From contig NZ_BBJX01000005.1 in NCBI RefSeq assembly GCF_000739995.1, forward strand, positions 186,001 through 250,000: a stretch of 64,000 nucleotides of DNA. Direction: 5' to 3'. Shown piece after piece: positions 1,076-64,000 of the stretch. The DNA is from Comamonas granuli NBRC 101663. Its GTDB lineage: Bacteria; Pseudomonadota; Gammaproteobacteria; Burkholderiales; Burkholderiaceae_C. The position numbers and the translations under genes are program-made. Position 1 is the first letter of the stretch, and every line of letters begins with the position of its first letter. The notes under the pieces were generated by a model. That model searched no databases, had not been told where the DNA came from, and saw nothing but the letters and a program-made list of their open reading frames with translations.

Positions 1076-3787
1076 TTATACGTTGGCCAGTGCGCGTGTG
1101 ACGACCTCGCGCACGTCGTTGGAGAGGTCGGGCCGGGCGGCGACGCGCGCGATCGCCTCGCGCGCGGCCGTGCGCCAGGGTTCGGCGAGCTTGCTCCAGC
1201 GGTCGAGCGCGCGCGCCAGGCGTGCGGCCACCTGGGGGTTGATGGCGTCGAGTTCCATGACGCGCTCGCTCCAGAACACATAGCCCGCGGCGTCCTGGCG
1301 GTGGAAGGCGCCGGGGTTGGCGTTGCAGTAGCTGAAGATGAGGCTGCGCGCCCGGTTGGGGTTCTTGAGCGAAAACTGCGGGTGCTGCATGAGCTGGCGC
1401 ACCAGGGGCAGCACATTGCCGCCGCGGTCGGGGCTGCCGGCCTGCAGCGCGAACCATTTGTCGATGACCAGCGCATCGTCCTTGAACAACTGGTGAAAGC
1501 GTGCCAGGGCGGGCTGGGCCAGCGCGTGGCCGCTGGCGACCAGGGCCGACAGGGCGTTGAAGCGGTCGGTCATGTTGCCCGCGTCCTTGAAGCGCTGGTA
1601 GGCCTTGCCGGGCCAGACGGTGTCGCCGCTCGCGCGCGCGGCCAGGCACAGCATGGCCAGGGCCAGGCCGGCGAGGGCGCGGCGGCCGGCCGAGGCGGCG
1701 TCGGGGCGGTAGGCGCCCGTGTGCTGGTGTTGCTCCCAGGCCCAGGCCCAGTCGGCCTGCAGGGCGGCGGCCAGCTCCTGGCGCATGGCTTCGCGCACGG
1801 CGTGCACGCGCTGCGGGTCCACCACGTCGAGCTGCTCGGCGATGTAGGTCTCCGAGGGCAGGGTGAGCACGAGCTCCTTGAAGGCCGCGTCCAGGCCGGG
1901 ATGGCGCAGCACGCTGCGCATGGCCTCGATGTAGCTGGCAGGCAGGATTTTGGAGTCAATTTGGCCTTCAGCGCCCGTGGACAGTGCGCTGTCAGCTATC
2001 GCTTGTGTAGCAATGCGCAGCGCCAGACGCTGGCTGGCCTCCCAGCGGTTGAAGGCGTCGCTGTCGTGCGCGAGCAGGGTGAGCAGCTCGGCGTCGCTGT
2101 AGTCGCATTCGAGGATGACCGGCGCGCTGAAGCCGCGCAGGAGCGAGGGCACGGGGGCGCTGGGCACGTTGACGAAGCTCAGCGTCAGGCCGGCCTCCTG
2201 CAGCACCACGGTGCGCGAGAGGGTGCCGGGGGCGGCTTCGCCCTCCAGTTGCAGGGGCAGGGCGCTGCCGTCCTGCGCGAGCAGGCCGAGCTCGACCGGG
2301 ATGACGAAGGGCCGCTTGTCCGGCTGGCCCGGCGTGGCGGGGCAGCTTTGCGTGAGCGTGAGCGTGTAGCGCTGGGTGGCGGCGTCGTAGGCGCCTTCGG
2401 CGCGCACGCGCGGCGTGCCGGCCTGGCTGTACCAGCGCTTGAAGCCATCCAGGTGCAGGGCCAGGGGGCTGGCGGGGTTGGCGTCGGCCATGGCCTGGGC
2501 GAAGTCGTCGCAGGTCACGGCCTGGCCGTCGTGGCGCTCGAAGTACAGCTTCATGCCGCGCGCGAAGCCCTTGCGGCCCACCAGGTTGTGCTGCATGCGC
2601 ACCACCTCGGCGCCTTTTTCGTAGATGGTGACGGTGTAGAAGTTGTTGATCTCGACGTAGCTGTCGGGCCGCACCGGGTGGGCCATGGGGCCGGCGTCCT
2701 CGGGGAACTGCGCGGTGCGCAGCACGCGCACGTCCTCGATGCGCTTGACGGCGCGCGCGGACGGGCTGCCCGCCATGTCCTGGCTGAACTCCTGGTCGCG
2801 AAAGACCGTGAGGCCCTCCTTGAGCGAGAGCTGGAACCAGTCGCGGCAGGTGACGCGGTTGCCCGTCCAGTTGTGGAAGTACTCGTGCCCCACCACGGAC
2901 TCGATGTGGGCGAAGTCGGCGTCGGTGGCCGTGGCTTCGCTCGCCAGCACGTACTTGGTGTTGAAGATGTTCAGGCCCTTGTTCTCCATGGCGCCCATGT
3001 TGAAGTCGCTGGTGGCGACGATCATGAAGCGCTCCAGGTCCAGGCTCAGGCCAAAGCGGGCCTCGTCCCAGGCGATGGAGGCCATGAGCGAGTTCATGGC
3101 GTGTTCGGTCTTGCCCAGGTCGCCCGGGCGCACGTAGACCTGCAGCAGGTGCGGCTGGCCCGCGCGGCTGATGATCTGCTGCTCGCGCGCCACCAGCTTG
3201 CCCGCCACCAGGGCGAAGAGGTAGCAGGGCTTCTTGTGCGGGTCCTGCCAGCGGGCAAAGTGGCGGCCCTCGGGCAGCGCACCCTGCTCGACGAGGTTGC
3301 CGTTGGAGAGCAGCACCGGGCAGGCCGCCTTGTCCGCGCGCAGCAGCACGCTGTAGCTGGCCATGACGTCGGGTCGGTCCAGGAAGTAGGTGATGCGCCG
3401 AAAGCCCTCGGCCTCGCATTGGGTGAAGAAGGTGTCGCCGCTCACGTACAGGCCCGAGAGCTGCGTGTTCTTGGCGGGCGCGCAGGTGGTGAAGATCTCC
3501 AGCTCGAAGGGCGCATCGCCCTCGGGCAGGTTCTCCAGCACGAGCTGGCCGCCCTCGAGCTTGAACGAGGTGCCTGCGCCATTGACCAGCACACGCGCCA
3601 GGTTGAGCTCCTCGCCGTCCAGGCGCAGCGGCTGGGCCGGTGCGTCCGGGTTGCGGCGCACGCGCATCTTGTTCAAGACGCGGGTCTTGGCCGGGTCGAG
3701 GTCGAACGTGAGATCCACCGTGTCGATCCAGTACGCCGGCGGGGCGTAGTCCAGACGGTGGATGGCGGTGGCTTGTCCTTCTTTCAT
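1076..3787 (-). CDS. pepN: Aminopeptidase N (M1 family zinc metallopeptidase)
   Basis: Cytoplasmic broad-specificity aminopeptidase that removes N-terminal residues from peptides. At 903 residues it is slightly longer than the usual 870-890. The zinc motif HEYFHNW starts at residue 301, and the exopeptidase motif GAMEN lies about 40 residues earlier. The start ATG has AAGGA upstream and is 20 bp after the prfB stop. An unusual feature sits near residues 592-612: the coding sequence runs through a copy of the GATAGCT repeat (1948-2012). This gives a low-complexity stretch between helices of the C-terminal domain without breaking the frame. Confidence 0.96.
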   Translation of the reverse strand: MKEGQATAIHRLDYAPPAYWIDTVDLTFDLDPAKTRVLNKMRVRRNPDAPAQPLRLDGEELNLARVLVNGAGTSFKLEGGQLVLENLPEGDAPFELEIFTTCAPAKNTQLSGLYVSGDTFFTQCEAEGFRRITYFLDRPDVMASYSVLLRADKAACPVLLSNGNLVEQGALPEGRHFARWQDPHKKPCYLFALVAGKLVAREQQIISRAGQPHLLQVYVRPGDLGKTEHAMNSLMASIAWDEARFGLSLDLERFMIVATSDFNMGAMENKGLNIFNTKYVLASEATATDADFAHIESVVGHEYFHNWTGNRVTCRDWFQLSLKEGLTVFRDQEFSQDMAGSPSARAVKRIEDVRVLRTAQFPEDAGPMAHPVRPDSYVEINNFYTVTIYEKGAEVVRMQHNLVGRKGFARGMKLYFERHDGQAVTCDDFAQAMADANPASPLALHLDGFKRWYSQAGTPRVRAEGAYDAATQRYTLTLTQSCPATPGQPDKRPFVIPVELGLLAQDGSALPLQLEGEAAPGTLSRTVVLQEAGLTLSFVNVPSAPVPSLLRGFSAPVILECDYSDAELLTLLAHDSDAFNRWEASQRLALRIATQAIADSALSTGAEGQIDSKILPASYIEAMRSVLRHPGLDAAFKELVLTLPSETYIAEQLDVVDPQRVHAVREAMRQELAAALQADWAWAWEQHQHTGAYRPDAASAGRRALAGLALAMLCLAARASGDTVWPGKAYQRFKDAGNMTDRFNALSALVASGHALAQPALARFHQLFKDDALVIDKWFALQAGSPDRGGNVLPLVRQLMQHPQFSLKNPNRARSLIFSYCNANPGAFHRQDAAGYVFWSERVMELDAINPQVAARLARALDRWSKLAEPWRTAAREAIARVAARPDLSNDVREVVTRALANV
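1948..2012 (-). repeat. GATAGCT palindromic repeat, copy 1, inside pepN
   Basis: On the minus strand the element reads TGCTA, a short spacer, GATAGCT, a diverged stem (ACAGCGC...GGGCGCTG), AAGGCC and an AT-rich tail. It is fully inside pepN and in frame. The local base composition is visibly more AT-rich than the flanking gene. Confidence 0.75.
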
Positions 3788-3807
3788 CCTGATTCCTTAG
3801 CGTGCGT

Positions 3808-4912
3808 TTACACGCCTTGCTTGAGCGCGGCTTCGATGAACGCATCGAGGTCGCCGTCGAGCACCTTCTGCGTGGCGGAGATTTCGACGTTGGTGCGCAG
3901 GTCCTTGATGCGGCTGTTGTCCAGCACGTAGCTGCGGATCTGGTGGCCCCAGCCCACGTCGGTCTTGGTGTCTTCGAGCTTTTGCTGCTCTTCCATGCGC
4001 TTGTGCATCTCCAGTTCGTAGAGCTTGGAGCGCAGGCGCTGCCAGGCCACGTCGCGGTTGCTGTGCTGGCTGCGGCCGTCCTGGCACTGCACCACGGTGC
4101 CGGTGGGGATGTGCGTCAGGCGCACGGCCGAGTCGGTCTTGTTGATGTGCTGGCCGCCCGCACCGCTGGCGCGGTAGGTGTCGGTGCGCACGTCGGCGGG
4201 GTTGATGTCGATCTCGATGGAGTCGTCGATCTCGGGGTAGACGAACAGCGAGGCGAACGAGGTGTGCCGCCCGCCCGAGCTGTCGAAGGGGCTTTTGCGC
4301 ACCAGGCGGTGCACGCCCGTCTCGGTGCGCAGCAGGCCGTAGGCGTACTCGCCCTCGATGTGGATGGTGGCGCTCTTGATGCCGGCCACGTCGCCCGGGG
4401 TCTCCTCATCGACCGTGGCCTTGAAGCCCTTGCGCTCGGCGTACTTGAGGTACTGGCGCAGCAGCATGCTGGCCCAGTCGCAGGCCTCGGTGCCGCCAGC
4501 GCCGGCCTGGATGTCGATGTAGCAGTTCAGCGGATCGGCCTCCTTGCTGAACATGCGGCGGAACTCGAGCTCCTCGATCAGCGGGCGCAGCTTGTCGGTC
4601 TCGGCCTCGATGGTCAGCAGGCCGGCTTCGTCATCCTCTTCGCGGCTCATCTCGTAGAGCTCGCTGTTGTCGGCCAGCTCGCGCGTGAGCTTTTCCAGCG
4701 TGACGACCACGCTGCTGAGTGACTTCTGCTCCTTGCCCAGCTCCTGGGCCTTTTTCGGGTCGTTCCAGACGGCCGGGTCTTCGAGCGAGGCGTTTACCGT
4801 GCGCAGGCGTTCAAACTTGGCATCGAAGTCAAAGATACCTCCGTAACTCGGCCGTGCGCGTGGCCAAGTCCTGGAGGGTGTTGCCGATCTGGTTGATGCG
4901 TTCTGCTTCCAT
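3808..4912 (-). CDS. prfB: Peptide chain release factor 2 (programmed +1 frameshift)
   Basis: Recognises UGA and UAA stop codons and triggers peptide release. The product is made from two frames. The ATG at 4912 opens 27 codons ([11 protein letters not shown]...) ending in UGA at 4831-4829. The ribosome must shift +1 there and continue in the frame running from 4830 to 3808, giving about 367 residues (E. coli RF2 has 365). The RF2 discriminator SPF and the catalytic GGQ loop ([10 protein letters not shown]) are present. The residue before SGAGGQ is Ala rather than the Thr of E. coli K-12. It lies directly upstream of pepN. Confidence 0.96.
4826..4844 (-). promoter_or_regulatory. prfB autoregulatory +1 frameshift site
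   Basis: On the minus strand the site reads CGG AGG TAT CTT TGA C: an internal Shine-Dalgarno-like AGG, the slippery CUU codon, the in-frame UGA and a following C. This matches the classical RF2 autoregulation cassette, in which low RF2 favours slippage from CUU to UUU and so raises RF2 synthesis. Conservation of each element, including the C after the stop, makes the call secure. Confidence 0.93.
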
Positions 4913-5015
4913 GGTGTGCGATCCTGGGTTCTATTTGACTGAATAACCTCACATTTTCGCACGTGCGGCCTGTTGCGGGCTTTTCCAGCCGCGCTGCCGC
5001 GCACGGGGATGCTGT

Positions 5016-5070
5016 TGCTATCTTTGTGATAGCTACTGGCGCCCGCTTTACGGGTGCTGGAGGTCTTTCA
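5016..5070 (+). repeat. GATAGCT palindromic repeat, copy 2
   Basis: TGCTATCTTTGTGATAGCT, then GGCGCCCGCTTTACGGGTGC and TGGAGGTC. It sits between the prfB upstream region and the convergent hydrolase gene. Its 3' end supplies the hydrolase stop codon (TGA on the minus strand, 5070-5068). Confidence 0.8.
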
Positions 5071-5991
5071 GGCCGATAGCAGGAAACCTTCGATCAGCGC
5101 CGCCACGGCCTGGGGCTGGTCGTGGTGCAGCATGTGGCCTGCGTCCTCGACGCGCGCCGTGCGGCAGTCGGGCACGCTTTGCAGGCGCTGGTGGTATTCC
5201 TCCAGCGTGTAGCGGCCCTGCCACCACAGGCCCAGGCTGTCGTCGCTCGCCTCGATGCACAGCGTGGGCGCGGTGATGCTGGCGTAGAGCGCCAGCACCT
5301 CGTCCAGGCGAAAGAGCTGCGCGTTGACGATCTTGTGCGCGGCGTCGCCCAGGATCTCCCATTGCCCCTGGGCGTTGGGGCGCGCCCAGTGGCGCGCCAG
5401 CCAGGCGGCCTTGTCCTGGGGCAGGCGCGGGTTGGTCTTCATCAGGCGCCGGGCCACGCCGTCTGCGCTGTCGTAGGTCTTGAGGGCCATGTCGCCGCGC
5501 TGCAGGGCCTTGAGTTCGTCCATCCACTGGGCGTAGCGCTGCGGGGCCTTGGCGGGCTTGCTCGCGGGCATGCCGAAGCCCTCCAGGTTGACCAGGCGGC
5601 GGATGCGCGCGGGGCGCGACCCGGCGTAGAACATGGCCACATTGCCGCCCATGCTGTGGCCCACCAGGTCCACGGGGGTATCGGGCGCGAAGTGGTCGAG
5701 CAACTGGTCCAGGTCCGCCAGGTAGTCGGGGAAGAAGTAGTGGTCCGTGGGCACGGGCGGCGCCGTCAGCCCGAAGCCGCGCCAGTCCGGCGCGATGATG
5801 CGCCGCCCCTGCACAAAGGCCTGGGAGAAGGCATCGACCACGAACTGGTAGGACGCGGACACGTCCATCCAGCCGTGCACCAGCACCAGGGGCGGCAGCG
5901 TAGACGTGTCGGGCCCCCACTGGCGCACGTGGTAGTTCAGGTGCCGGATGGGGACGAAGGCGCTGCGCGCGGTCTGGTGTTCCTGGTACAT
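5068..5991 (-). CDS. Alpha/beta hydrolase
   Basis: Serine hydrolase of the alpha/beta fold, 307 residues; the substrate cannot be read from sequence. The oxyanion region is VLVHGWMDVS near residue 40. The nucleophile elbow is VGHSMGGN near residue 113, the acid lies in IEASDDS, and the catalytic His lies in EDAGHMLHHDQP near the C-terminus. The start at 5991 was chosen because the upstream extension of the open frame is non-conserved and runs through the divergent region. The 3' end abuts a repeat. Family-level assignment only; esterase, lactonase or C-C hydrolase are all possible. Confidence 0.88.
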   Translation of the reverse strand: MYQEHQTARSAFVPIRHLNYHVRQWGPDTSTLPPLVLVHGWMDVSASYQFVVDAFSQAFVQGRRIIAPDWRGFGLTAPPVPTDHYFFPDYLADLDQLLDHFAPDTPVDLVGHSMGGNVAMFYAGSRPARIRRLVNLEGFGMPASKPAKAPQRYAQWMDELKALQRGDMALKTYDSADGVARRLMKTNPRLPQDKAAWLARHWARPNAQGQWEILGDAAHKIVNAQLFRLDEVLALYASITAPTLCIEASDDSLGLWWQGRYTLEEYHQRLQSVPDCRTARVEDAGHMLHHDQPQAVAALIEGFLLSA

Positions 5992-6195: not shown

Positions 6196-6239
6196 CCGGT
6201 GGCCGGGCCGTCGGTTTGCCTGCCGTTCCGGCGCGGTGA

Positions 6240-6302
6240 TTTTGGGCAAAATAGGGGTGCAGCGCTTTACCATCAAGCGCAAGCAGCTATCAAAGCAATA
6301 GT
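6240..6302 (-). repeat. GATAGCT palindromic repeat, copy 3
   Basis: On the minus strand: TATTGCTTTGATAGCTGCTT, then GCGCTTGATGGTAAAGCGCTG and an AT-rich tail. It lies just upstream of the ybaK start, between the aldo/keto-reductase remnant and ybaK, and may mark the deletion endpoint. Confidence 0.88.
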
Positions 6303-6306
6303 AAAA

Positions 6307-6828
6307 ATGGCCAAGAAAGAAGGCAAGACCGCGCACGTGAGCGAGACCCCCGCCACGCAGATGCTCAAGGCGCACCGGGTGGAGTTCACCGGTCACCCTT
6401 ACGAATACGTCGAGCATGGCGGCACGGCCGAGTCGGCGCGTCAGCTCGGCCTGGATGAGCACACCGTGGTCAAGACCCTGGTGATGCAGGACCAGGACGC
6501 CAGGCCGCTGATCGTGCTCATGCACGGCGACTGCAAGGTCTCCACCAAGAACCTGGCACGCCAGATCGGCGCCAAGTCGGTCGAGCCCTGCACGCCCGAG
6601 GTGGCCCACCGCCACAGCGGGTATCTGGTGGGCGGCACTTCGCCATTCGGCACGCGGCGCGACATGCCGGTCTACATCGAGGAAAGCATCCTGGCATTGC
6701 CGCGCATCGCCATCAACGGCGGGCGCCGGGGCTACCTGGTGCAGATCGACCCCCAGGCCTGCGTGCGCCTGTTGAACGCGCGCCCGGTGCAGTGTGCGCT
6801 GCGCGATGAACCTGCGGGGGGCGCGTAG
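6307..6828 (+). CDS. ybaK: YbaK/EbsC family aminoacyl-tRNA deacylase
   Basis: Trans-editing enzyme that hydrolyses mischarged tRNA, typically Cys-tRNA(Pro), in the cytoplasm. The 173-residue product has the family's usual length. It contains the conserved HGDCKVSTKNLARQIGAKSV region with its Lys, GGTSPFGTRR, and the C-terminal INGGRRGYLVQIDP. The ATG at 6307 was chosen because similarity to the family begins there (MAKKEGKTAHVSETPATQML). The open frame continues upstream through the repeat into the reductase remnant, but that part is unlikely to be translated usefully. Confidence 0.9.
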   Translation: MAKKEGKTAHVSETPATQMLKAHRVEFTGHPYEYVEHGGTAESARQLGLDEHTVVKTLVMQDQDARPLIVLMHGDCKVSTKNLARQIGAKSVEPCTPEVAHRHSGYLVGGTSPFGTRRDMPVYIEESILALPRIAINGGRRGYLVQIDPQACVRLLNARPVQCALRDEPAGGA

Positions 6829-11349: not shown

Positions 11350-13329
11350 ATGTCCTACCTCGTGCTCGCCCGCAAGTACCGCCCGCGCAACTTCACCGAA
11401 ATGGTGGGGCAGCAGCATGTGGTGCAGGCGCTGACCAATGCGCTCACGCAGCAGCGGCTGCACCATGCTTATTTGTTCACGGGCACGCGCGGCGTGGGCA
11501 AGACCACGGTGTCGCGCATTCTGGCCAAGTCGCTCAACTGCCAGGGGCCTGACGGGCAGGGCGGTATCACCGCCACGCCCTGTGGCGTGTGCCCGGCCTG
11601 TACGGACATCGACAGCGGGCGCTTTCCTGACTATACCGAGCTGGACGCAGCCTCCAACCGCGGCGTGGACGAGGTGCAGGGCCTGTTGGAGCAGGCGGTG
11701 TACAAGCCGGTGCAGGGGCGCTTCAAGGTCTTCATGATCGACGAAGTGCACATGCTGACCAACACGGCTTTCAACGCCATGCTCAAGACGCTGGAAGAGC
11801 CGCCCGAGTACCTCAAGTTCGTGCTCGCCACGACCGATCCGCAGAAGGTGCCGGTCACCGTGCTGAGCCGCTGCCTGCAGTTCAACCTGCGCCCCATGGC
11901 GCCCGAGACGGTGCTGGAGCACCTGGCCCAGGTGCTGGCCACCGAGCAGGTGCCGGCCGAGCCGCAGGCGCTGCGCCTGCTGGCGCGCGCCGCGCGCGGC
12001 TCCATGCGCGATGCGCTCTCGCTCACCGACCAGGCCATTGCCTTCGGCAGCGGCCGCATCGAGGAAGCCACCGTGCGCCAGATGCTGGGCAGCGTGGACT
12101 GCAGCCATGTGCTGCACCTGATCGACGCACTGGCCCAGGCCGATGGGCGCAGCGTGGTGCACACCGTCGAGACCCTGCGGCAGAACGGCCTGTCCGCCGC
12201 CTCCACGCTGGAGGAGATGGTGACCGTGCTGCAGCGCATGGCCGTGCTGCAGGCCGTACCCGGCATGGACGCCGGCGCCGCCAGCGACCCCGAGGCCGCC
12301 GAGGTGCAGCGCCTGGCCGCGTTGCTGCCCGCGGACGAAACGCAACTGCTCTACAGCATCTGCCTGCATGGCCGCGCCGAACTGGGCCTGGCCCCGGACG
12401 AGTACGCTGCGCTCACCATGGTGCTGCTGCGCCTGCTGCCCTTCAAGGCCACCAGCGGTACGGCGGAAAAAAAAACACTGAAACCGGCTGAGGCCCCGCC
12501 CGCTGCGGCCGCCGCCCCCGCCGCGCCAGCGCCTGCCGGGCCTGCCCCGCATGCTGCGCCGGCTGCGCTGCAACCAGAGCCAAAAGAGGCTGCAGCGCCC
12601 GTGGTGCAAGCGCAACCAGCTATCGAATCCATAGCGGAGCAGACGCCAGCCCCCGCCCCGGAGGCCCCGTTCATGCCGGCCGCTGTGGCAGACGCGCAGC
12701 CGGCACCGGCAGAACCTGCCCAGGCCGCCGCCGGCGAACCCGAGGCCGAGCCTGCGCGGCAGGCGGCATCCGCCCGGCTGCGCGCCTTGCCCGTGCGCAG
12801 CCCCGAGGCCGCCGCGCCTGTGCCCCAGGCACCGGCCGCGGCGGCGCCCAAGGTGGCTCCCATTCCCGTGCGCGAGCCGCGCCAGGAGGGCGCCCGGCTC
12901 CAGCCCCGGCCGGCCGAGGGCGCTGCCGCCCGGCGCCTGGTGCCGACCGCCGAGGGCGAGGCCTGGCAGGCGGCCGTGCAGCAGCTCATCGCCAGCGAGG
13001 CCATCACCGCGCTGGTGCGCGAGCTGGCGCTGCAGTCCCAACTGGTGGCGCGCGACGGCGAGCACTGGCTGCTGCGCGTGGAGAGCGAGTCGCTCAACCA
13101 GGGCAGTACGCGCGAGCGCCTGCGCGCCGCGCTGGCCGCTGCGGGCCTGGCGCAGCAGATCAGCGTGGAGCTGGGCCCCGTGACGGACAGCCCGGCGCTG
13201 CGCAATGCGGCGCGGCAGAACGAACGCCAGCAGCGCGCCCTGGAGATCGTGCAGAACGACCCCTTCGTGCAGACCCTGGTGCGCGAGTTCGATGCGCGCA
13301 TCGTGCCGGGCAGCGTGCAGCCGCTCTGA
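11350..13329 (+). CDS. dnaX: DNA polymerase III subunits tau/gamma
   Basis: Clamp-loader ATPase and polymerase-organising subunit. Full-length tau is 659 residues. The Walker A motif GTRGVGKTT has Lys at residue 51. Zinc cysteines lie in CGVCPAC, with Cys also at LNCQ, and the Walker B region is MIDEVHML. A long Ala/Pro/Glu-rich linker (residues ~375-540) precedes the C-terminal tau domain. Nine A residues at 12467-12475 mark a slippage site for a gamma form. A GATAGCT repeat lies in frame in the linker. The ATG at 11350 gives the family start MSYLVLARKYRP. First gene of dnaX-ybaB-recR. Confidence 0.96.
   Translation: MSYLVLARKYRPRNFTEMVGQQHVVQALTNALTQQRLHHAYLFTGTRGVGKTTVSRILAKSLNCQGPDGQGGITATPCGVCPACTDIDSGRFPDYTELDAASNRGVDEVQGLLEQAVYKPVQGRFKVFMIDEVHMLTNTAFNAMLKTLEEPPEYLKFVLATTDPQKVPVTVLSRCLQFNLRPMAPETVLEHLAQVLATEQVPAEPQALRLLARAARGSMRDALSLTDQAIAFGSGRIEEATVRQMLGSVDCSHVLHLIDALAQADGRSVVHTVETLRQNGLSAASTLEEMVTVLQRMAVLQAVPGMDAGAASDPEAAEVQRLAALLPADETQLLYSICLHGRAELGLAPDEYAALTMVLLRLLPFKATSGTAEKKTLKPAEAPPAAAAAPAAPAPAGPAPHAAPAALQPEPKEAAAPVVQAQPAIESIAEQTPAPAPEAPFMPAAVADAQPAPAEPAQAAAGEPEAEPARQAASARLRALPVRSPEAAAPVPQAPAAAAPKVAPIPVREPRQEGARLQPRPAEGAAARRLVPTAEGEAWQAAVQQLIASEAITALVRELALQSQLVARDGEHWLLRVESESLNQGSTRERLRAALAAAGLAQQISVELGPVTDSPALRNAARQNERQQRALEIVQNDPFVQTLVREFDARIVPGSVQPL
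12463..12496 (+). promoter_or_regulatory. dnaX A9 slippage site producing a short gamma form
   Basis: Codons 372-376 read GCG GAA AAA AAA ACA. With one extra A in the transcript, or a -1 ribosomal shift, the frame becomes AAC ACT GAA ACC GGC TGA and ends at about 380 residues. With one A missing it becomes CAC TGA and ends at about 376 residues. Both alternative frames therefore terminate at once, as at known dnaX slippage sites. The AAA-domain part would be complete in either short product. Confidence 0.72.
12581..12636 (-). repeat. GATAGCT palindromic repeat, copy 4, inside dnaX
   Basis: On the minus strand: CGCTATGGATTCGATAGCTG, then TTGCGCTTGCACCACGGGCG, CTGCAGCC and an AT-richer tail. 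The element lies in the linker of DnaX (about residues 411-429) and adds codons without breaking the frame. Confidence 0.78.
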
Positions 13330-14494: not shown

Positions 14495-14537
14495 ACCGTG
14501 CGGCGCTGCACGGCCCGTCAGGAGGCGCAGTGGTTTG

Positions 14538-14592
14538 CGCTATTGGTTTGATAGCTGTTTGCGCTGATTGGTAAAGCGCTGGAGGCATTTTT
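14538..14592 (+). repeat. GATAGCT palindromic repeat, copy 5
   Basis: GCTATTGGTTTGATAGCTGT, then TTGCGCTGATTGGTAAAGCG, CTGGAGGC and a T-rich tail. Its 3' GGAGG ends about 11 bases before the ATG of the MAPEG gene and is the only Shine-Dalgarno-like sequence there, so the repeat may supply the ribosome-binding site. Confidence 0.85.
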
Positions 14593-14596
14593 CATT

Positions 14597-15022
14597 ATGA
14601 ATACCAATTCCCATCTGGCGCATTTCACCGTGGCCTACTGGTGCGTATTGGTGGCGGTGCTGCTGCCGCTGGCGTGCTCGCTCATCGCCAAGCGTGCGGG
14701 CTTTGGCAAGAAGCGTGCGCAGGGCGGCTACGACAACCACCAGCCGCGCGCCTGGCTGGCGCGGCAGACGGGCGCGGCGGCGCGCGCCAATGCGGCGCAG
14801 GCCAACAGCTTTGAGGCGCTGCCCTTCTTCATGGGGGCGGTCATCATCGCCCACCAGCTCGGCGCCGGGCAGACGGCGCTGGACCTGCTGGCCCTGCTGT
14901 GGGTGCTGCTGCGCCTGTTCTACATCGTCACCTACGTGGCCGACCAGCCGACGGCACGCAGCGCTGTCTGGGGCGCGGCCTTCGTGGTCAACATCGCCAT
15001 CTTCTTCCTCGGCTGGCGCTGA
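14597..15022 (+). CDS. MAPEG family membrane protein
   Basis: Small integral membrane protein of the eicosanoid/glutathione metabolism (MAPEG) family. The 141 residues form four hydrophobic segments. The conserved pattern RANAAQANSFEALPFFMGAV after the first loop is typical. Bacterial members are mostly of unknown substrate. The reading frame begins just after a repeat that may supply its ribosome-binding site. Confidence 0.85.
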   Translation: MNTNSHLAHFTVAYWCVLVAVLLPLACSLIAKRAGFGKKRAQGGYDNHQPRAWLARQTGAAARANAAQANSFEALPFFMGAVIIAHQLGAGQTALDLLALLWVLLRLFYIVTYVADQPTARSAVWGAAFVVNIAIFFLGWR

Positions 15023-24200: not shown

Positions 24201-24361
24201 AGACGCGCACGCAGATCGGCTGGGTCATCGTCGGCGGCATGAGCCTGGGCACGCTGCTGACCATCTTCGTCGTGCCCACCATGTATGCCCTGCTGGCGCG
24301 CCGCGCCGTGCCCGGCCCGCGCGCCCAGCCCGCGCAGGCAGCGCACGGTGCGCCGCATTGA
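21263..24361 (+). CDS. RND-family multidrug efflux permease
   Basis: Proton-driven inner-membrane transporter of the HAE-1 type, 1032 residues with twelve expected membrane helices. Start LAEVSIRRPVLATVLSLLVL is typical. TM4 carries the proton-relay acids in LAIGLVVDDAIVMLENIFRH, followed by the GG...EIGFAIVAMTLTLVAVY-type region. The second half begins near EDRGTILASITAPDGATLDY, and TM10-11 contain GLITKHGILIVEFANQ. It pairs with the adaptor gene just upstream. The regulator is not visible nearby. Confidence 0.95.
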   Translation: MQLAEVSIRRPVLATVLSLLVLLVGAVSFTRLSVREYPRIDEPVVTVSVRYAGASAEVMESQVTKPLEDSIAGIDAVDVITSISRAEQSQISVRFRLEKDADNAAAEVRDRTARVRGRLPDEVDEPVIAKVEADAVPVMWLAFSSDTRTPLQINDLLNRIVKPRLQTVSGVADVPIYGERRYAMRVWLDPQRMAGYRLTTQDVEDAIRRSNLELPAGRIESLEREFSVTSQTNLLRASEFAQIVVRNVNGFAVRLADVARVEEGPASDRSRVRLNGREAISVGVIRQTTANPLEISDGVRAMLPVLKADLPPDVSIDIANDNSRFIDRSVKSVYQTIAEAVVLVALVIFVFLRTVRASIIPIVTIPVSLIGSFALMHLAGFSINTLTLLALVLAIGLVVDDAIVMLENIFRHIEEGLDPFSAAIRGAREIGFAIVAMTLTLVAVYAPLAFTPGRTGRLFVEFALALAGAVLVSGFVALTLSPMMCSLLLRHNPQPGWFDRSMERWLTALADGYGRLLRWVLTARAGALLQARWLVLALMLACAAAIALIWPTMRQELSPLEDRGTILASITAPDGATLDYTDRYARELEKIGKDYPEFDRIFANIGNPTVSQGSVVYRAVDWEQRQRSTLQLAREMQGRIASLPGVNAFPITPPSLGQGFRSRPLHYVIQTSESYEDLYATVNRFMAEVAKNPGIVSPDVDLRLNKPELRIEVDRERAADLGVGVDVVARAVETMLGGRTVTRYKRDAEQFDVIVQTADADRRTPQDIDGIYVRGRGDAMIPLSSLVRVHESVSPRELNHFGQRRSATITANLASDYSLGQALAFMDRTAAQVLRPGYTTELNGISREFKSSQGALVVVFVLALVFIYLVLSAQFESFLDPLVILLSVPLSMVGALLALKWSGGSLNVYSQIGLITLVGLITKHGILIVEFANQLRAQGLEMVDALVKASSQRLRPILMTTGAMVLGAIPLALAEGAGAETRTQIGWVIVGGMSLGTLLTIFVVPTMYALLARRAVPGPRAQPAQAAHGAPH

Positions 24362-24365
24362 TGCT

Positions 24366-24420
24366 CCATTTTTGATAGCTGCTGGCGCTTGTCGGCATTG
24401 CCCTGCAGCCTTTTTTGAGC
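24366..24420 (+). repeat. GATAGCT palindromic repeat, copy 6
   Basis: ATTTTTGATAGCTGCTGGCG, then CTTGTCGGCATTGCCCTGCA and GCC with a T-rich tail, directly after the RND stop. The second stem arm is eroded. A GC-rich inverted repeat (GGCGGCGGCGCACCGCCGCC) further down, near 24447, could end the RND transcript. Nothing else is seen in 24421-24556 apart from AGGAGG before the next ATG. Confidence 0.8.
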
Positions 24421-24556
24421 CTTGGATTGCGCTCGGGCGCGGGCGGCGGCGCACCGCCGCCGTGACGCAGATCAACCACGACCGTGCGCGCCGCTGGGGC
24501 ATGGGCGGCGCGCGCCGGCAGCGCGCCTATGATGTGTCTGGCAGGAGGATGGCTGC

Positions 24557-30244: not shown

Positions 30245-30277
30245 GGCAGCTTGGCCGCGCGGGTGCAAATGGGCATG

Positions 30278-31735
<1,458 letters not shown>

Positions 31736-36140: not shown

Positions 36141-36159
36141 AGGCCGGAGCGTCTCGCAC

Positions 36160-36212
36160 TACTTTTTTGATAGCTGCTTGCGCTTGCTGCACAAGCGCTG
36201 AAGGCCCAAAAC
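36160..36212 (+). repeat. GATAGCT palindromic repeat, copy 8
   Basis: ACTTTTTTGATAGCTGCTTG, then CGCTTGCTGCACAAGCGCTG and AAGGCCCAAAAC. A near-consensus copy with a perfect GCGCTTG/CAAGCGC stem, placed 20 bp after the murB stop. Confidence 0.9.
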
Positions 36213-36279
36213 ACCTGAAATCGCTGTGGCGGGCGGGCGCCGCCATCCGCTACAATCGCGCCCCGGCACTTTCGCCAGC

Positions 36280-36317: not shown

Positions 36318-36992
36318 ATGAGCACCATCCAGGCGCCGCCGTCGCGCGTGCCGCTGTACCTCTCCCTCCTGGTGGCGTTCCACATCGCCATCGTCATCGC
36401 CAGCAACTACCTGGTGCAACTGCCCATCATGCTGCTGGGCTTTCACAGCACCTGGGGCGCGTTCAGCTTCCCGTTCATCTTCCTCGCCACGGATTTGACG
36501 GTGCGTCTGATCGGCAAGCCCCAGGCGCGCCGCGTCATCACGCGCGCCATGCTGCCGGCGCTCGTCGCCTCCTACGTCGTGGGCGTGCTGTTCCATGAAG
36601 GGCGCTTCAACGGCTGGGAGTCGCTGGGCGCGTTCAACACCTTCGTGTTCCGCATCGCCTTCGCCAGCTTCGCCGCCTACGTGCTGGGGCAGCTCTTGGA
36701 CATCCAGGTGTTCGACCGCATCCGCCAGACGAGCCGCGCCTGGTGGCTCGCGCCCGCGGCGGCCTCGGTGTTCGGCCAGGCGCTGGATACGGCGGCGTTC
36801 TTCTCCATCGCCTTCTGGCGCAGCCCCGACGCGTTCATGGCCGCGCACTGGGTGGAGATCGCCTGGGTGGACTACGCCATCAAGCTGGCGGTGAGCCTGC
36901 TGCTGTTCGTGCCCGCCTACGGCGTGCTGCTGGCGGCCATCGTGCGCACCATGCGCACGCCACCCGCGCCCCCCGCGGTGGCCGCGCCCTGA
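36318..36992 (+). CDS. yhhQ: Queuosine precursor transporter (VUT family, YhhQ)
   Basis: Inner-membrane importer of preQ0/preQ1, precursors for queuosine in tRNA. The 224 residues form about six hydrophobic helices. The family pattern includes IASNYLVQLPI, TWGAFSFPFIFLATDLTVRL and the conserved SVFGQALDTAAFFSIAFW near residue 155. AAGGA precedes the ATG by five bases and may be sequestered by the leader pseudoknot. It converges with the SDR gene, leaving four bases between the stops. Confidence 0.92.
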   Translation: MSTIQAPPSRVPLYLSLLVAFHIAIVIASNYLVQLPIMLLGFHSTWGAFSFPFIFLATDLTVRLIGKPQARRVITRAMLPALVASYVVGVLFHEGRFNGWESLGAFNTFVFRIAFASFAAYVLGQLLDIQVFDRIRQTSRAWWLAPAAASVFGQALDTAAFFSIAFWRSPDAFMAAHWVEIAWVDYAIKLAVSLLLFVPAYGVLLAAIVRTMRTPPAPPAVAAP

Positions 36993-36996
36993 CGGC

Positions 36997-37704
36997 TCAC
37001 ACGCTGCGCATCAGCCCGCCATCGACCCGGATGTTCTGCCCCGTGATGTAGGCCGCGCCCTCGCTGGCCAGGAAGGCCACCGTCGCGCCGACTTCCTCGG
37101 CCGTGCCGTAGCGCTGCAAGGGCACCGACCGGCGGCGCTCCTCGGTCTGCGGCAGGCTGTCGATCCAGCCGGGCAGCACGTTGTTCATGCGGATGTTGTG
37201 CGCGCCATACTCGTCGCAGAAGATCTTGGTGAACGCTGCCAGCCCCGAGCGCGCCACGGCCGAGGTGGGAAACAGCGCCGCGGGCTCGAACGCCCAGGCC
37301 GAGGAGATGTTAATGATGCTGCCGCCGCCCTGGCGCTGCATGATGGGCGCCACCAGCCGCGTGGCGCGCACCACGTTGAGAAAATAGACCTCCAGGCCGC
37401 GCACCCAGTCCGCGTCGCTGATCTCCAGCAGCCGGCCCTTGGGGCCGTGGCCCGCGCCGTTGACCAGCACGTCGATGCGGCCCCAGCGCTGCATCACGGC
37501 GTCCACCAGCGTCTGCAGGTCGGCCACGTTCTGGTTCGAGCCCGTCACGCCCACGCCGCCCAGTGCATGGGCCAGCGCCTCGCCCTTGCCGGAGGACGAG
37601 AGGATGCCCAGGGCAAAGCCCGCTGCATGCAGCTTGCGCGCGGCGGCAGCGCCCATGCCGCTGCCGCCCGCCACCACCATGGCCACCCGTTGCTGTTCGC
37701 TCAT
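36997..37704 (-). CDS. Short-chain dehydrogenase/reductase-like protein
   Basis: Rossmann-fold SDR, 235 residues. The cofactor loop is VVAGGSGMGAAAARKL (a variant of TGxxxGxG), with NGAGHGPKG, IINISSAW and a C-terminal GQNIRVDGGLMRSV. The usual active-site Tyr-x-x-x-Lys is not visible: the segment after the Ser reads FEPAALFPTSAVARSGLAAF, so catalysis by the standard mechanism is doubtful. The ATG at 37704 follows directly from repeat copy 9 on the other side. Physiological substrate unknown. Confidence 0.85.
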   Translation of the reverse strand: MSEQQRVAMVVAGGSGMGAAAARKLHAAGFALGILSSSGKGEALAHALGGVGVTGSNQNVADLQTLVDAVMQRWGRIDVLVNGAGHGPKGRLLEISDADWVRGLEVYFLNVVRATRLVAPIMQRQGGGSIINISSAWAFEPAALFPTSAVARSGLAAFTKIFCDEYGAHNIRMNNVLPGWIDSLPQTEERRRSVPLQRYGTAEEVGATVAFLASEGAAYITGQNIRVDGGLMRSV

Positions 37705-37708
37705 TTGC

Positions 37709-37763
37709 TTCTCTTTCGATAGCTGCTTGCGCTTGCCCATCAAGCGCTGGAGGCCATTTTGGC
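37709..37763 (+). repeat. GATAGCT palindromic repeat, copy 9
   Basis: TTCTCTTTCGATAGCTGCTT, then GCGCTTGCCCATCAAGCGCT and GGAGGCCATTTTGG. The cleanest consensus copy in the window. It lies just upstream of the SDR start (minus strand) and after ddh. Confidence 0.92.
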
Positions 37764-37817
37764 CCTGATTGCGCGGCCCGCCCGGGGCGCCTGCGCCGCC
37801 TGCGCGGCGCGCAGGCC

Positions 37818-38813
37818 TCAGAGCAATTCGGCGCGCAGTTGCTCGGCGCTCTTGGGCGAGAGCAGGCCCGGGGGCACGTCGAACACCGTCTTGCAGCCGT
37901 ACTGGCCGGCCTGCTGCAGGCGGTGCACGGCGCGCGCGTAGGCCACGAGCACGCTGGCGGTGAACTCGGGGTTGCTGTCGAGTTGCAGGCGGTACTCGAT
38001 GACCTGCTGGCTGCCGGCCGAGGTGTTGCCGCTGCGGATCACGAAGCCGCCGTGCGGCATGGCGCCGTGCGCGCGCGCGAGCTCCTCGGCGCTGATGAAG
38101 TGCACCGTGGTGTCGTACTCGTCGAAGTAGTGCGGCATGTGCACGATGGTGTGGCGCACGGTCTCGGCGTCGGCGCCGGCCTGCAGCACCACGTAGCATT
38201 CGCGCCGGTGCTTCTCGCGCGTGCTGAGCTGGGGGCGCACGCCGCTGCGCACCTTGTCCACGGCCTCGGGCACGGGAATGGTGTACTGCACGCCGCCGGC
38301 CACGCCGGGCACGCGGCGGATGGCGTCGGAGTGGCCCTGGCTCAGGCCCTTGCCCCAGAAGGTGTAGGTCGCGCCGTCGGGCAGCAGGGCCTCGCCCATC
38401 AGGCGGTTGAGCGAGAACATGCCGGGGTCCCAGCCCGCGGAGATCAGCGCCGTCGTGCGGCCGGCCTGCGCTGCGGCATCGACGGCCGCGAAATGCCCGG
38501 GAATGCGGGCGTGGGTGTCGAAGCTGTCCACCAGGCTGAAGTGGCGCGCCAGCTCGGGGCTTTGGCGCGGCAGGTCGTCCTTGGAGCCGCCGCACAGGAT
38601 GAGCACGTCGAGCCGGTCGCGGTGGCCGGGCAACTCGTCCAGGCCGTGCACGGCCACGCCGGCGCCCAGGGGCTGGAGCTGCGCCGGGTCGCGCCGCGTG
38701 TAGATGGCGGCGGTGGCCATGTCCGGGTTCTTGGCGATGGCGGCTTCCACGCCACGGCCCAGGTTGCCGTAGCCCACGATGCCGACGCGGATGGGGGAGA
38801 GGGGGGCTTGCAT
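37818..38813 (-). CDS. ddh: meso-Diaminopimelate D-dehydrogenase
   Basis: NADPH enzyme that forms meso-diaminopimelate in one step from tetrahydrodipicolinate, a shortcut to lysine and cell-wall precursor. The 331-residue protein starts with IRVGIVGYGNLGRGVEAAI. It carries DVLILCGGSKDDLP, LVDSFDTHARIPGHFAAVDA, SAGWDPGMFSLNRL and WGKGLSQGHSDAIRRVPGV, all typical. The ATG at 38813 was chosen over an upstream in-frame start that falls over the argG end. It is 16 bp downstream of argG. Confidence 0.93.
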   Translation of the reverse strand: MQAPLSPIRVGIVGYGNLGRGVEAAIAKNPDMATAAIYTRRDPAQLQPLGAGVAVHGLDELPGHRDRLDVLILCGGSKDDLPRQSPELARHFSLVDSFDTHARIPGHFAAVDAAAQAGRTTALISAGWDPGMFSLNRLMGEALLPDGATYTFWGKGLSQGHSDAIRRVPGVAGGVQYTIPVPEAVDKVRSGVRPQLSTREKHRRECYVVLQAGADAETVRHTIVHMPHYFDEYDTTVHFISAEELARAHGAMPHGGFVIRSGNTSAGSQQVIEYRLQLDSNPEFTASVLVAYARAVHRLQQAGQYGCKTVFDVPPGLLSPKSAEQLRAELL

Positions 38814-38829
38814 GCGCTGCGCCTGGGGC

Positions 38830-40245
<1,416 letters not shown>

Positions 40246-40563
40246 TCAGCCGAAGTGGCAAATGTAGTGGTAGGCCTCGGTCACGCGGATGTCGAAGCTC
40301 GAATGCGCGGGAACGCTGAAGCGCTCGCCCGGGCCCACGTGCTGCCAGGTGTCCGTGCCCGCCAGGCGGTACTCGCAGGCGCCGGCCACGCATTCCATCA
40401 CCTCGGGCGCGCTGGTCTTGAAAGTCAGCGTGGCGGGCAGCACCACGCCCACGGATTTTTTCGTGCCGTCGGCCAGGGTGATGCCGTGGCTCACGCACTT
40501 GCCCTCGAAATACACGTTCGCCCGGGTGGTGACGGACACGCCGTCGAGTTGTTCGGTGGTCAT
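40246..40563 (-). CDS. ppnP: Pyrimidine/purine nucleoside phosphorylase PpnP
   Basis: Small cupin-fold enzyme that phosphorolyses nucleosides. The 105-residue protein (family length ~95) has the conserved GKCVSHGITLADGTKKSVGV, EVMECVAGACEYRL and the closing FDIRVTEAYHYICHFG. The function was established for the E. coli homologue (YaiE); assignment here is by family. The ATG at 40563 gives MTTEQLDGVSVTTRANVYFEG. Confidence 0.93.
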   Translation of the reverse strand: MTTEQLDGVSVTTRANVYFEGKCVSHGITLADGTKKSVGVVLPATLTFKTSAPEVMECVAGACEYRLAGTDTWQHVGPGERFSVPAHSSFDIRVTEAYHYICHFG

Positions 40564-40650
40564 GGAAATACGCAGAGGAGCAGGTCAAACGGGCGATTTT
40601 AGGCGACCGGCCTGGCTCCCGCCGCAGGCCGCGCGGCAAAAGCGGCGGGC

Positions 40651-40681
40651 AAAAAAAGAGGAGGGCCCGGCCGGGCCCTCC
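40651..40681 (-). terminator. Rho-independent terminator after the glycine-zipper gene
   Basis: On the minus strand, GGAGGGCCCGG-CCGGGCCCTCC forms a perfect 11-bp stem followed by TCTTTTTTT. It lies 20 bp past the stop of the gene ending at 40702. Confidence 0.92.
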
Positions 40682-40701
40682 AGGAGGTGCGCTGCGCCGC
40701 C

Positions 40702-41334
40702 TCAGCGGTCGTAGGGGTTGTTGTTGTAGTACCGGTGCGGGTGGCGGCGGCGGTAGTAGGGGTCGCCCTCGTAGCCGTACTCGATGATGGTCACGCCCGG
40801 CTGCGGCGGGGCCGCGTAGGGCGAGGTGACCACGCCGGGCTGCACATAGCTGCCGTAGGGGACGGGGCCGTTCACGGGTTGCACCTGCACGTTGATGTAG
40901 CGGCCCGGGTCGGTGGCCGTCTGCGTGGTGTACTGCCGCCCGGCGTATTCGTACACCACGGTGTAGCCCACGGTGCGGTTCTCGTAGTAGGTCTCGGTGC
41001 CGCAGCGCTGCACGGTTTCGTACTGCGGCTGGCCCTGGCCCTCGATGTGGTTGCCGAGCACGGCCCCGCCGATCACGCCGATGGCCGTGGCCGCAGCGCG
41101 GCCGCTGCCCTTGCCGATGGCGTTGCCCGCTGCGCCGCCGGCGATGGCGCCCAGCACCGCGCCGCCGCCCGAATTGCGCTGGCCGGTGTACACGGTTTCG
41201 TTGGTGCACACCTGGCGCGGCGTGGCCACCTGCTGCACGATGGGCGTGGCCGAGAGCACGCGCGCCTGCTCCTGGGCGTGGGACAGCGCCGCCGTGGCAG
41301 CCAGGACCGAGAAGGCAATCGCTTTTTTCATCAT
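40702..41334 (-). CDS. Exported glycine-zipper 2TM-domain protein
   Basis: A 210-residue envelope protein with a signal peptide (MMKKAIAFSVLAATAALSHA). The glycine-zipper region near residues 55-95 (GGGAVLGAIAGGAAGNAIGK, GVIGGAVLGNHIEG) resembles SlyB/Rcp-type outer-membrane proteins. The C-terminal part is Tyr/Pro-rich and ends in YRRRHPHRYYNNNPYDR. Function unknown; such proteins are often linked to envelope integrity. A strong terminator follows. Translation may start at the second Met (41331). Confidence 0.85.
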   Translation of the reverse strand: MMKKAIAFSVLAATAALSHAQEQARVLSATPIVQQVATPRQVCTNETVYTGQRNSGGGAVLGAIAGGAAGNAIGKGSGRAAATAIGVIGGAVLGNHIEGQGQPQYETVQRCGTETYYENRTVGYTVVYEYAGRQYTTQTATDPGRYINVQVQPVNGPVPYGSYVQPGVVTSPYAAPPQPGVTIIEYGYEGDPYYRRRHPHRYYNNNPYDR

Positions 41335-46116: not shown

Positions 46117-46196
46117 ACCGGGCGGCGGCGCTGTACCTTGGCAAAAAAGTGAGCACCTCGCGCTTGTCCAGATTGGTTTTCAACATAAAAATCATC

Positions 46197-46240
46197 TGAA
46201 ATCCTCTGTTTTCAAGCGCCACCAGCTATCGTTTTTGAAT
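46197..46240 (-). repeat. GATAGCT repeat, copy 11 (half element)
   Basis: On the minus strand: CAAAAACGATAGCTGGTGGC, then GCTTGAAAACAGAGG. The head and first stem arm are kept, but the second arm is lost. The surrounding spacer 46117-46253 is AT-rich and holds no other recognisable feature. Confidence 0.65.
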
Positions 46241-46253
46241 TGAAAGCCGCACC

Positions 46254-48940: not shown

Positions 48941-49016
<76 letters not shown>

Positions 49017-49038
49017 ACCTGAATACAATCTAGGTTTT

Positions 49039-49114
49039 GACCCTATCGTCTAGAGGCCTAGGACACTACCCTTTCACGGTAGGTACCGGGGTTCGAATCC
49101 CCGTAGGGTCGCCA
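49039..49114 (+). tRNA. tRNA-Glu (UUC), copy 1
   Basis: 76 nt with encoded CCA. Acceptor GACCCTA/TAGGGTC, anticodon loop CTTTCAC giving UUC. The sequence is very close to E. coli tRNA-Glu in the D and anticodon arms. Confidence 0.96.
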
Positions 49115-49161
49115 AGTTTTGTCGCACTTGACTCGCAAGAGTGTAAAAGCGGCACCGACGC

Positions 49162-49238
49162 GGAGTGGTAGTTCAGTCGGTTAGAATACCGGCCTGTCAC
49201 GCCGGGGGTCGCGGGTTCGAGTCCCGTCCACTCCGCCA
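49162..49238 (+). tRNA. tRNA-Asp (GUC), copy 1
   Basis: 77 nt with encoded CCA. Acceptor GGAGTGG/CCACTCC, anticodon arm CCGGCCTGTCACGCCGG giving GUC. Confidence 0.96.
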
Positions 49239-49254
49239 TTTGTTTGCTAGGTTT

Positions 49255-49330
<76 letters not shown>

Positions 49331-49360
49331 AAACAGTCGGTTGTTTTTCGTCCAGGTTTT

Positions 49361-49436
49361 GACCCTATCGTCTAGAGGCCTAGGACACTACCCTTTCACG
49401 GTAGGTACCGGGGTTCGAATCCCCGTAGGGTCGCCA
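49361..49436 (+). tRNA. tRNA-Glu (UUC), copy 2
   Basis: 76 nt, identical to copy 1 at 49039-49114. The following 47-nt spacer to tRNA-Asp is also identical, marking a recent tandem duplication or active gene conversion. Confidence 0.96.
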
Positions 49437-49483
49437 AGTTTTGTCGCACTTGACTCGCAAGAGTGTAAAAGCGGCACCGACGC

Positions 49484-49560
49484 GGAGTGGTAGTTCAGTC
49501 GGTTAGAATACCGGCCTGTCACGCCGGGGGTCGCGGGTTCGAGTCCCGTCCACTCCGCCA
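49484..49560 (+). tRNA. tRNA-Asp (GUC), copy 2
   Basis: 77 nt, identical to copy 1 at 49162-49238. Last gene of the array, six bases before a strong terminator stem. Confidence 0.96.
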
Positions 49561-54586: not shown

Positions 54587-54607
54587 ATTTTGCGGCCGCA
54601 GCAGGGC

Positions 54608-54666
54608 TCTACTTCGGTTTTGATAGCTTGTCGCGCTTGGCTGGCAAGCCCTGGAGCCGTTTTTTG
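54608..54666 (+). repeat. GATAGCT palindromic repeat, copy 12
   Basis: CTACTTCGGTTTTGATAGCT, then TGTCGCGCTTGGCTGGCAAG and CCCTGGAGCC with a T-rich tail. It lies between the divergent marR and smc genes. Confidence 0.85.
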
Positions 54667-54781
54667 CACCTGAATGCAGAGTTCGCGGCAGGCGGTGCCC
54701 CGGGGCGGGCAGGCACGGTATCATTTGCGGCTGTCCTGCCCTGGGCCGCCCTGCCGCGCGCCGCCACCCACTGCCAGCCCC

Positions 54782-58329: not shown

Positions 58330-62493
<4,164 letters not shown>

Positions 62494-63801: not shown

Positions 63802-63961
63802 AAGAGCTTCCCTAACACCAGCGCCATTCTAGGCAATCATCTCGAAGCCGCCTCGGCAGCTACAACCCCACACCACAATCCCCGCCGATTGGCGGTATGA
63901 CTGCTCACCTCCCGCCCTCCAAGCGGTGGGGCCTGCAAGCCATCCATCCCGCCTGCAGAAC

Positions 63962-64000
63962 TCCAAATTTGATAGCTGCTAGCGCTTTACTATCAAGCGT
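63962..64000 (+). repeat. GATAGCT palindromic repeat, copy 15, cut by window edge
   Basis: CCAAATTTGATAGCTGCTAG, then CGCTTTACTATCAAGCG up to the last base. The second arm's end and the tail are outside the window. Confidence 0.88.

Follow-up and report, generated by a model that had tools for sequence, protein, structure and literature searches.

A REP-like hairpin repeat of Comamonadaceae, often at the same sites across genera and present in integron cassettes

Introduction

Short bacterial repeats are usually taken to be restless parasites. Among the described families, repetitive extragenic palindromic (REP) sequences were reported to be bound by gyrase, IHF and Pol I (PMC6006769). The same source describes a Y1 transposase class, TnpA_Y1 subclass 2.1 or group 1 of the REP-associated tyrosine transposases (RAYTs), also called TIRYT, with about 238 aa, NH[VYF]H and YI.LNP-type motifs and GGGG[AT][CG]A[CG] inverted repeats, and presents it as occurring without REPs (PMC6006769). 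Rickettsia palindromic elements (RPEs) are described as palindromic repeats placed in-frame in unrelated genes as well as in spacers (PMC10969869). The beta-proteobacterial repeat element (BRE) was described from Bordetella and Comamonadaceae, sometimes within genes (PMC3110155), as a sequence of about 90 bp with 69% GC in Bordetella and in tandem or variable-number tandem repeat form (PMC3110155). Here we describe a repeat found in a stretch of 64,000 nucleotides of Comamonas granuli NBRC 101663 (contig NZ_BBJX01000005.1, positions 186,001 to 250,000; hereafter the window). The element, found in relatives of Acidovorax and Rhodoferax, forms a DNA hairpin about 55 letters long. Some of these bacteria have hundreds of copies, most of them at gene ends, and a copy also occurs in a gene cassette of antibiotic-resistance plasmids.

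As a REP-like repeat the element is ordinary; what is unusual is that its positions are often fixed, that two genes carry signs of constraint at the DNA level, and that it is linked to integrons. Based on these observations, a reading is proposed, with a rough probability of 0.45, that the element is a REP-like hairpin of ancient origin, retained as a DNA site and now mostly staying in place. No Rfam family matched it, either over the whole window at gathering cut-offs or over window 35500-41000 at E<=5. A search of titles and abstract starts in one library found no account of it, and among the matches listed for the core sequence in paper texts no title concerned a bacterial repeat. In phage records, one 40-bp match was found.

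Definition and copy number

The initial annotation of the window had listed fifteen copies of one palindromic element. A covariance model of 75 positions, built from 12 window copies and one copy outside the window, matches at 14 of these fifteen places, one of them (46197) partially with 22.6 bits, whereas 60263 stayed unmatched at E<=1. The copies at 1946-2020 and 46176-46250 were matched though outside the training set, and four additional weak matches are pieces of 19-26 nt, three of which represent the same hairpins on the opposite strand. That the repeat is real and exceeds chance was confirmed: GATAGCTGCTNGCGCTTG with at most 3 mismatches occurs 13 times in the window against 0.39 expected, none of 100 shuffles reaching 13, and a scan of the 3.5-Mb genome with the model gave at least 150 matches. 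The genome also contains 74 exact 17-mer cores and none of the reversed pattern. At a total of 150, the 14 matches within the 64 kb of the window may represent an above-average density.

A sample of 61 of the at least 150 matches, comprising the 30 top scorers and 31 chosen from lower ranks (hereafter the own copies), gave the consensus TGCTATnnTTTT-GATAGCTGCTn-GCGCTTG-5 nt-CAAGCGC-TGGAGGCC-WTTT, in which T12, A24, G25, C26, T27, C33 and G34 are invariant. The foot of the hairpin is mostly ATAG, with A (51/61) or G (9/61) at position 22, T23 in 58/61, and A24 and G25 in all copies; the extended structure has the pairs C26-G55, T27-A54, C29-G53 and T30-G52 around a bulge, and RTAG as its foot. 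Nine bases separate the last stem position, 50, from an A/T run that begins at 60, with T at positions 61-63 in 49-51 of the 61 copies. The stem arms, described earlier as invariant, do change, and some changes are paired. In 48 intergenic copies, 86.6% of the stem cells are paired against at most 48.2% in a slid register, and two-sided changes occur at five of the seven stem pairs, a result reached in 4 of 500 shuffles. Close inverted pairing of the REPIN type or of bacterial interspersed mosaic elements (BIMEs) was not seen in the 61 own loci, which hold five extra copies, none within 200 bp. One closely spaced inverted pair is present in the relative G120 (L325), and close same-strand copies occur at L050 and at L258, the latter a dnaX linker stretch of the relative G301 with four element copies 111-126 bp apart.

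Across the family, where up to 16 candidates were scored per genome, the element was found in 89 of 299 genomes and in 52 of 141 genera at E<=1e-5, leaving 210 genomes without a match. In G120, stretches sampled over 800 kb contained 109 matches, of which 11 fall in a single integron-bearing stretch, and 400 kb of G283 contained 66. These densities indicate that some relatives carry hundreds of copies.

Positional conservation across genera

Orthologous stretches of 11 window sites were fetched from G120, G226 and G190, which belong to three other genera, and a site was called filled at a model E<=0.05. Of the 33 site-by-genome tests 21 were filled, 15/24 at intergenic and 6/9 at coding sites. 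The tadA, murB, argG and ligA sites were filled in all three genomes (ligA once weakly), pepN, ybaK and smc in two, hydrolase/prfB, dnaX and recR in one, and purF in none; at pepN in G226 a relic is visible by eye only, with no model match. In G120, 374 gaps measure 30 bp or more and accommodate 66 intergenic copies, and for the 15/24 filled intergenic tests p=1e-4 even at a chance level of 25%, the tests not being independent. Over all other-genus genomes fetched, murB was filled in 6/7 and tadA in 6/6. Within the genus of the window, G313, G303 and G301 gave 22/30 filled over ten sites (tadA excluded). Orthologues have site-specific AT tracts and flanks in common, which indicates that orthologous copies descend from one insertion. 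At murB, the DNA past the element is unalignable between genera while the element is retained.

A comparison of empty and filled sites had been suggested as a check on mobility, and such a polymorphism does exist at argG. Of 20 same-genus stretches, eight carry the copy and 12 lack it, with a clean junction at four of the latter; among seven genomes of other genera three carry the copy in the same sense, one carries it inverted (G121) and three are empty (G136, G283, G072). Mobility is not the main signal, however, since most of the tested copies lie at the same place in other genera (21/33).

Signs of constraint on the sequence

Identity was compared among intergenic, 75-nt, model-recognised copies, with orthologue pairs in which at most one member is from the genus of the window. 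Between orthologues the core halves were identical at 0.78 and 0.69, the loop at 0.35 and the 5' flank at 0.42; between non-orthologous copies the corresponding values were 0.73, 0.65, 0.31 and 0.27. Orthologue loops are near saturation. These figures suggest that the flanks record descent while the core stays near the consensus. The coding test took all fetched relatives regardless of model detection. Inside the element, 4-fold third positions have 39% GC in pepN and 41% in ligA, compared with 93% and 94% elsewhere, and their identity is 0.82 and 0.84, compared with 0.71 and 0.76 elsewhere.

Placement and loop

Placement was counted after exclusion of 17 of the 109 G120 matches (11 in the integron stretch, 6 not of 75 nt) and of 4 of the 66 G283 matches (not of 75 nt). 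Intergenic placement was found for 46 of the 61 own copies, the neighbouring genes being codirectional in 33 cases, convergent in 11 and divergent in 2; the other 15 lie in coding sequence, 14 of them antisense. Copies outside genes number 66/92 in G120 and 56/62 in G283, the latter including two at stretch edges. Taking both genomes together, divergent gaps are underused (9 of 120 copies against 119 of 585 gaps, p=6e-4) and convergent gaps enriched (32 of 120 against 76 of 585, p=4e-4). Often a stop or start codon directly adjoins the AT-rich end, and the core begins 8-20 bp from the gene in 27/46 own, 22/66 G120 and 21/54 G283 intergenic copies. The likeness to REP elements pointed out by the initial annotation thus holds in form and placement: a short imperfect hairpin in high copy at gene ends, with depletion from divergent gaps. 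Three window copies are found inside genes (pepN, dnaX and ligA), so that the element is not purely extragenic. Fourteen apparently same-sense coding copies in G120 are at odds with the stop codons on that strand, possibly through gene-caller errors. In several members of the genus, a terminator-like hairpin distinct from the element is found after it at murB. A bias for one replication strand, hinted at by short lists, was dismissed, because a split by GC skew shows none (G120 18+/22- against 25+/33-, integron stretch omitted; G283 16+/17- against 17+/16-).

The loop, described earlier as variable, does differ between copies but is not free. Its five bases contain TGG or the inverse CCA in 43 of the 61 own copies (shuffle maxima 17 and 25), and both senses return in G120 (34 and 22 of 92) and in G283 (25 and 23 of 62). 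In codirectional intergenic copies, the loop sense relative to transcription is TGG:CCA = 14:14 in G120 and 13:15 in G283. The presence of both orientations, with no tie to transcription in these larger samples, is more in keeping with recognition of the DNA arms than with recognition of an RNA loop, and the latter was rejected as G120 and G283 show no strand preference. Reverse-complement loop pairs exceed within-loop shuffles (p=0.0015) and do not exceed column shuffles (p=0.14); loop inversion is only suggested. Furthermore, loops of paralogues in one genome are no more alike than others (identity 0.29), which argues against gene conversion, since this should produce shared loops across the hairpin.

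Integron cassettes and plasmids

A 20-kb stretch of G120 (L338, G120:C1:1576001-1596000) contains a tyrosine recombinase gene (193-1239, minus strand; Phage_integrase, SAM_4), attC-like repeats and cassettes, an arrangement that reads as a chromosomal integron. Ten of its cassettes carry a copy of the element, some being tandem 320-bp units with open reading frames (ORFs) of the DUF1010 type. By blastn with the murB-site copy (window 36140-36230), 1786 of 72556 plasmid records match, with 81-86% identity among the matches listed (15). Three records were examined in detail (NC_004464.2, LC623924.1 and CP076070.1; L378, L379 and L380), and the covariance model matches all three. In pCTX-M3 a DUF1010 ORF that follows intI1 and stands between dfrA12 and aadA2 contains the element; an IncP plasmid has six copies between ereA and blaIMP-1; and in a Vibrio anguillarum plasmid the copy lies in a DUF1010 ORF next to blaOXA-2. 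In the class 1 integrons of these plasmids, the copies occur within DUF1010 ORFs or in seemingly gene-less cassettes.

The dfrA12-aadA2 stretch is 84% identical to a G120 cassette over 327 bp. The element corresponds to about residues 30-54 of a 96-residue ORF, of which DUF1010 (PF06231) covers 31-96, and this overlap indicates that part of DUF1010 is the translation of the repeat. We take this cassette ORF to be the one named gcuF or orfF.

The resident Y1 transposase

The search for a RAYT gene suggested by the initial annotation found one Y1_Tnp gene in the genome, with an element copy directly behind it. In many relatives the gene lies upstream of a gltB-like gene, recognised by its translated start, and relatives of the transposase occur in Acidovorax, Rhodoferax, Polaromonas, Variovorax, Limnohabitans and others. 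The protein has 237 aa and the motifs NHFH, YIDLNP and WSS, and GGGGTCAGA/TGTCCCC/TCTGACCCC-type repeats flank its gene in many relatives. By these features, in a comparison of motifs by eye, it would belong to RAYT group 1/TIRYT.

The gene was counted by protein search at E<=1e-15, the PF01797 profile missing divergent relatives such as G141, and was found in 282 of 299 family genomes. The element occurs in 83/282 genomes with the transposase and in 6/17 without it (p=0.59), and the complete copy-rich genomes G256 and G270 lack the gene at E<=1e-15. An adjacent element match (E<=0.05) was present at 1 of 80 RAYT loci, counted irrespective of whether those genomes carry the element elsewhere. 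Copies recognised by the model adjoin the gene on its 3' side in the own genome (G000), G120, G121, G226, G302, G309 and G301, and on its 5' side in G190 and G301; in many other relatives a GCTAT...TTTTGAT motif persists next to the gene. The transposase-gltB spacer is read as one of many old element sites. A RAYT as the engine of spread was rejected, as it has no association with the element across genomes. The gene is present with a copy behind it, but its group-1/TIRYT features and the lack of association leave RAYT-driven mobility, as raised in the initial annotation, unsupported, and the tested copies mostly stay put.

A second, longer Y1-type, transposase-like ORF of the genome was seen at L136 (997-2118, minus strand; 373 aa, NHYH, YVDLNP), with an element copy at 224-298 in the same 3.2-kb stretch and relB/relE-like ORFs noted by eye nearby.

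Copies in the window

Table 1. Element copies in the window. Relatives filled are those of other genera (G120, G226, G190) and of the same genus (G313, G303, G301) unless stated.
Site	Position	Strand	Bits	Relatives filled	Remark
Inside pepN (gene on -)	1946..2020	-	39.9	5/6	Codon test run
Alpha/beta-hydrolase gene 3' end to prfB	5008..5082	+	60.3	3/6	
Directly 5' of YbaK-type Cys-tRNA(Pro) deacylase gene	6237..6311	-	72.9	5/6	
dnaX linker coding region	12570..12644	-	64.9	4/6	G301 with four copies
recR to MAPEG-family gene	14530..14604	+	70.8	4/6	
3' of AcrB-like gene	24354..24428	+	64.4		
Directly 5' of tadA	30266..30340	-	68.9	6/6 other-genus genomes	
3' of murB	36149..36223	+	71.3	6/7 other-genus genomes	
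5' of SDR-family gene (gene on -)	37698..37772	+	79.2		No orthologous stretch among 20 genus loci
ppnP-like gene to argG (both on -)	40172..40246	+	63.5		Filled/empty comparison
Half copy, purF to O-succinylhomoserine sulfhydrylase gene	46176..46250	-	22.6	0/6	
Divergent MarR-family gene to smc	54602..54676	+	67.6	2/6	
ligA N-terminal coding region	59479..59553	-	62.7	6/6, one weak	
Clipped by window end	63951..64000	+	41.6	2/2 same-genus	Score over positions 1-50

The tadA gene lies in one frame of 463 aa with a haloalkane-dehalogenase-like domain (window 30344-31735, plus strand). A tRNA cluster at window 48941-49557 has two similar units, with six tRNA matches in the cluster.

Proposed mechanism and rival explanations

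Copying would have spread the element when these Comamonadaceae genera radiated, or earlier, and the copies would since have become mostly fixed in place, with purifying selection probably acting on the DNA of the element itself. The likeliest reason for such selection would be a chromosomal protein that recognises the GATAGCT...GCGCTTG/CAAGCGC...GGAG hairpin, in the way reported for gyrase, IHF and Pol I with REPs (PMC6006769). Several points weigh against this mechanism. The analysis identified no binding protein and no phenotype. Some sites were plainly lost or gained, such as argG and purF, and at the transposase-gltB spacer only 4 of 23 genus loci retain a model match 3' of the gene, the other 19 keeping just the GCTAT...TTTTGAT end. 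The core-identity figures rest on model-recognised copies, a choice that favours a conserved core, and one row among them (ybaK of G226) is one base out of register. Over the 61 own copies, stem pairing is about what the column make-up predicts, and in that sample the RNA-sense loops lean towards TGG, 21 against 11. In coding regions, dnaX gives no sign of constraint at the DNA level (0.63 against 0.66), the arms are decayed in some copies, and the amino acids at these sites are conserved too, so that part of the conservation may be at the protein level.

One rival explanation is a selfish and now immobile miniature element that persists through low deletion rates and, within genes, through incorporation into proteins, as with the RPEs, and has no function today. 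It would account for the in-frame copies in ligA, dnaX and pepN, for the antisense orientation of 14/15 own coding copies, the sense that avoids TGA and TAG of the forward strand, for the empty and inverted argG sites and the several dnaX copies of G301, and for the core decay beside the transposase; the inflation of core conservation by model-based choice also speaks for it. We nevertheless consider it less likely than the proposed reading, because the core, unlike the diverging loop and flanks, stays near the consensus in the different genera, and because AT-ending synonymous codons are kept inside GC-rich genes, a result obtained with relatives chosen independently of the model. An RNA element, acting as terminator, mRNA 3'-end protector or site for an RNA-binding protein, is suggested by the hairpin and its placement at gene ends, but seems improbable: nine bases intervene between stem and A/T run, murB has its separate terminator-like hairpin in several genus members, copies lie 5' of, 3' of and inside genes on either strand, and the loop has no preferred sense on the transcript in G120 and G283, notwithstanding the lean towards TGG of the own sample. 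Least expected of all is a REP family that is still mobile, with the hairpin, in single-stranded form, as the substrate cleaved by the RAYT/Y1 transposase of the gltB locus. The gene is present with a copy adjoining it in G000, G120, G121, G226, G302, G309, G301 and G190, the GCTAT...TTTTGAT motif persists beside it in many others, and the foot RTAG is close to GTAG. Against these stand the group-1/TIRYT features and end repeats of the transposase as compared by eye, the absence of association across genomes with adjacency at a single one of 80 loci, and the stay of copies at the same sites across genera.

The reading of an ancient hairpin kept as a DNA site can be extended, as a conjecture that is unlikely to hold: the copies would be fixed genomic addresses for a chromosomal DNA-binding protein of Comamonadaceae, a class of dispersed palindromic sites retained in different genera at the same gene ends and inside ligA and pepN, and exported by integron cassettes to clinical plasmids, where part of the supposed family DUF1010 would be their translation. 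The repeat often acts like fixed DNA sites across genera, which makes the role of REP-like hairpins testable, since orthologous filled and empty sites are now identified. In addition, a link is drawn between a cassette found in 1786 plasmid records and cassettes of a chromosomal integron in a Comamonadaceae relative, and the question is raised whether DUF1010 is a real protein family.

Comparison with known systems

The element resembles REPs and BIMEs associated with TnpA_REP in being a short imperfect hairpin in high copy at gene ends, with a tetranucleotide-like foot, RTAG. It agrees with a REP as a palindromic hairpin of about 20-65 nt present in high copy and mainly between genes. It differs in that a REP has GT[AG]G 0-2 nt 5' of the foot, where the element has mostly ATAG, and in that a cognate TnpA_REP flanks or accompanies REPs, an association not found here although the transposase gene is adjacent in several element-rich genomes. 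Unlike REPs and BIMEs, the element occurs mostly as single copies, at positions often common to several genera. An intrinsic terminator, in which a GC-rich hairpin is followed directly by a U-run, does not describe it.

Like the RPEs, the element lies in-frame in genes and is common to species at these sites (ligA 6/6, pepN 5/6, dnaX 4/6). It is set apart from them, by description, through its length of about 55 bp against about 150 bp, its mostly intergenic placement (46/61) and the signs of constraint at the DNA level. The BRE differs in length and in its tandem form, a distinction drawn from its description and not from its letters. The DUF1010 cassette of class 1 integrons holds one copy of the element but, unlike the element, belongs to the gene cassettes and has an end repeat of its own.

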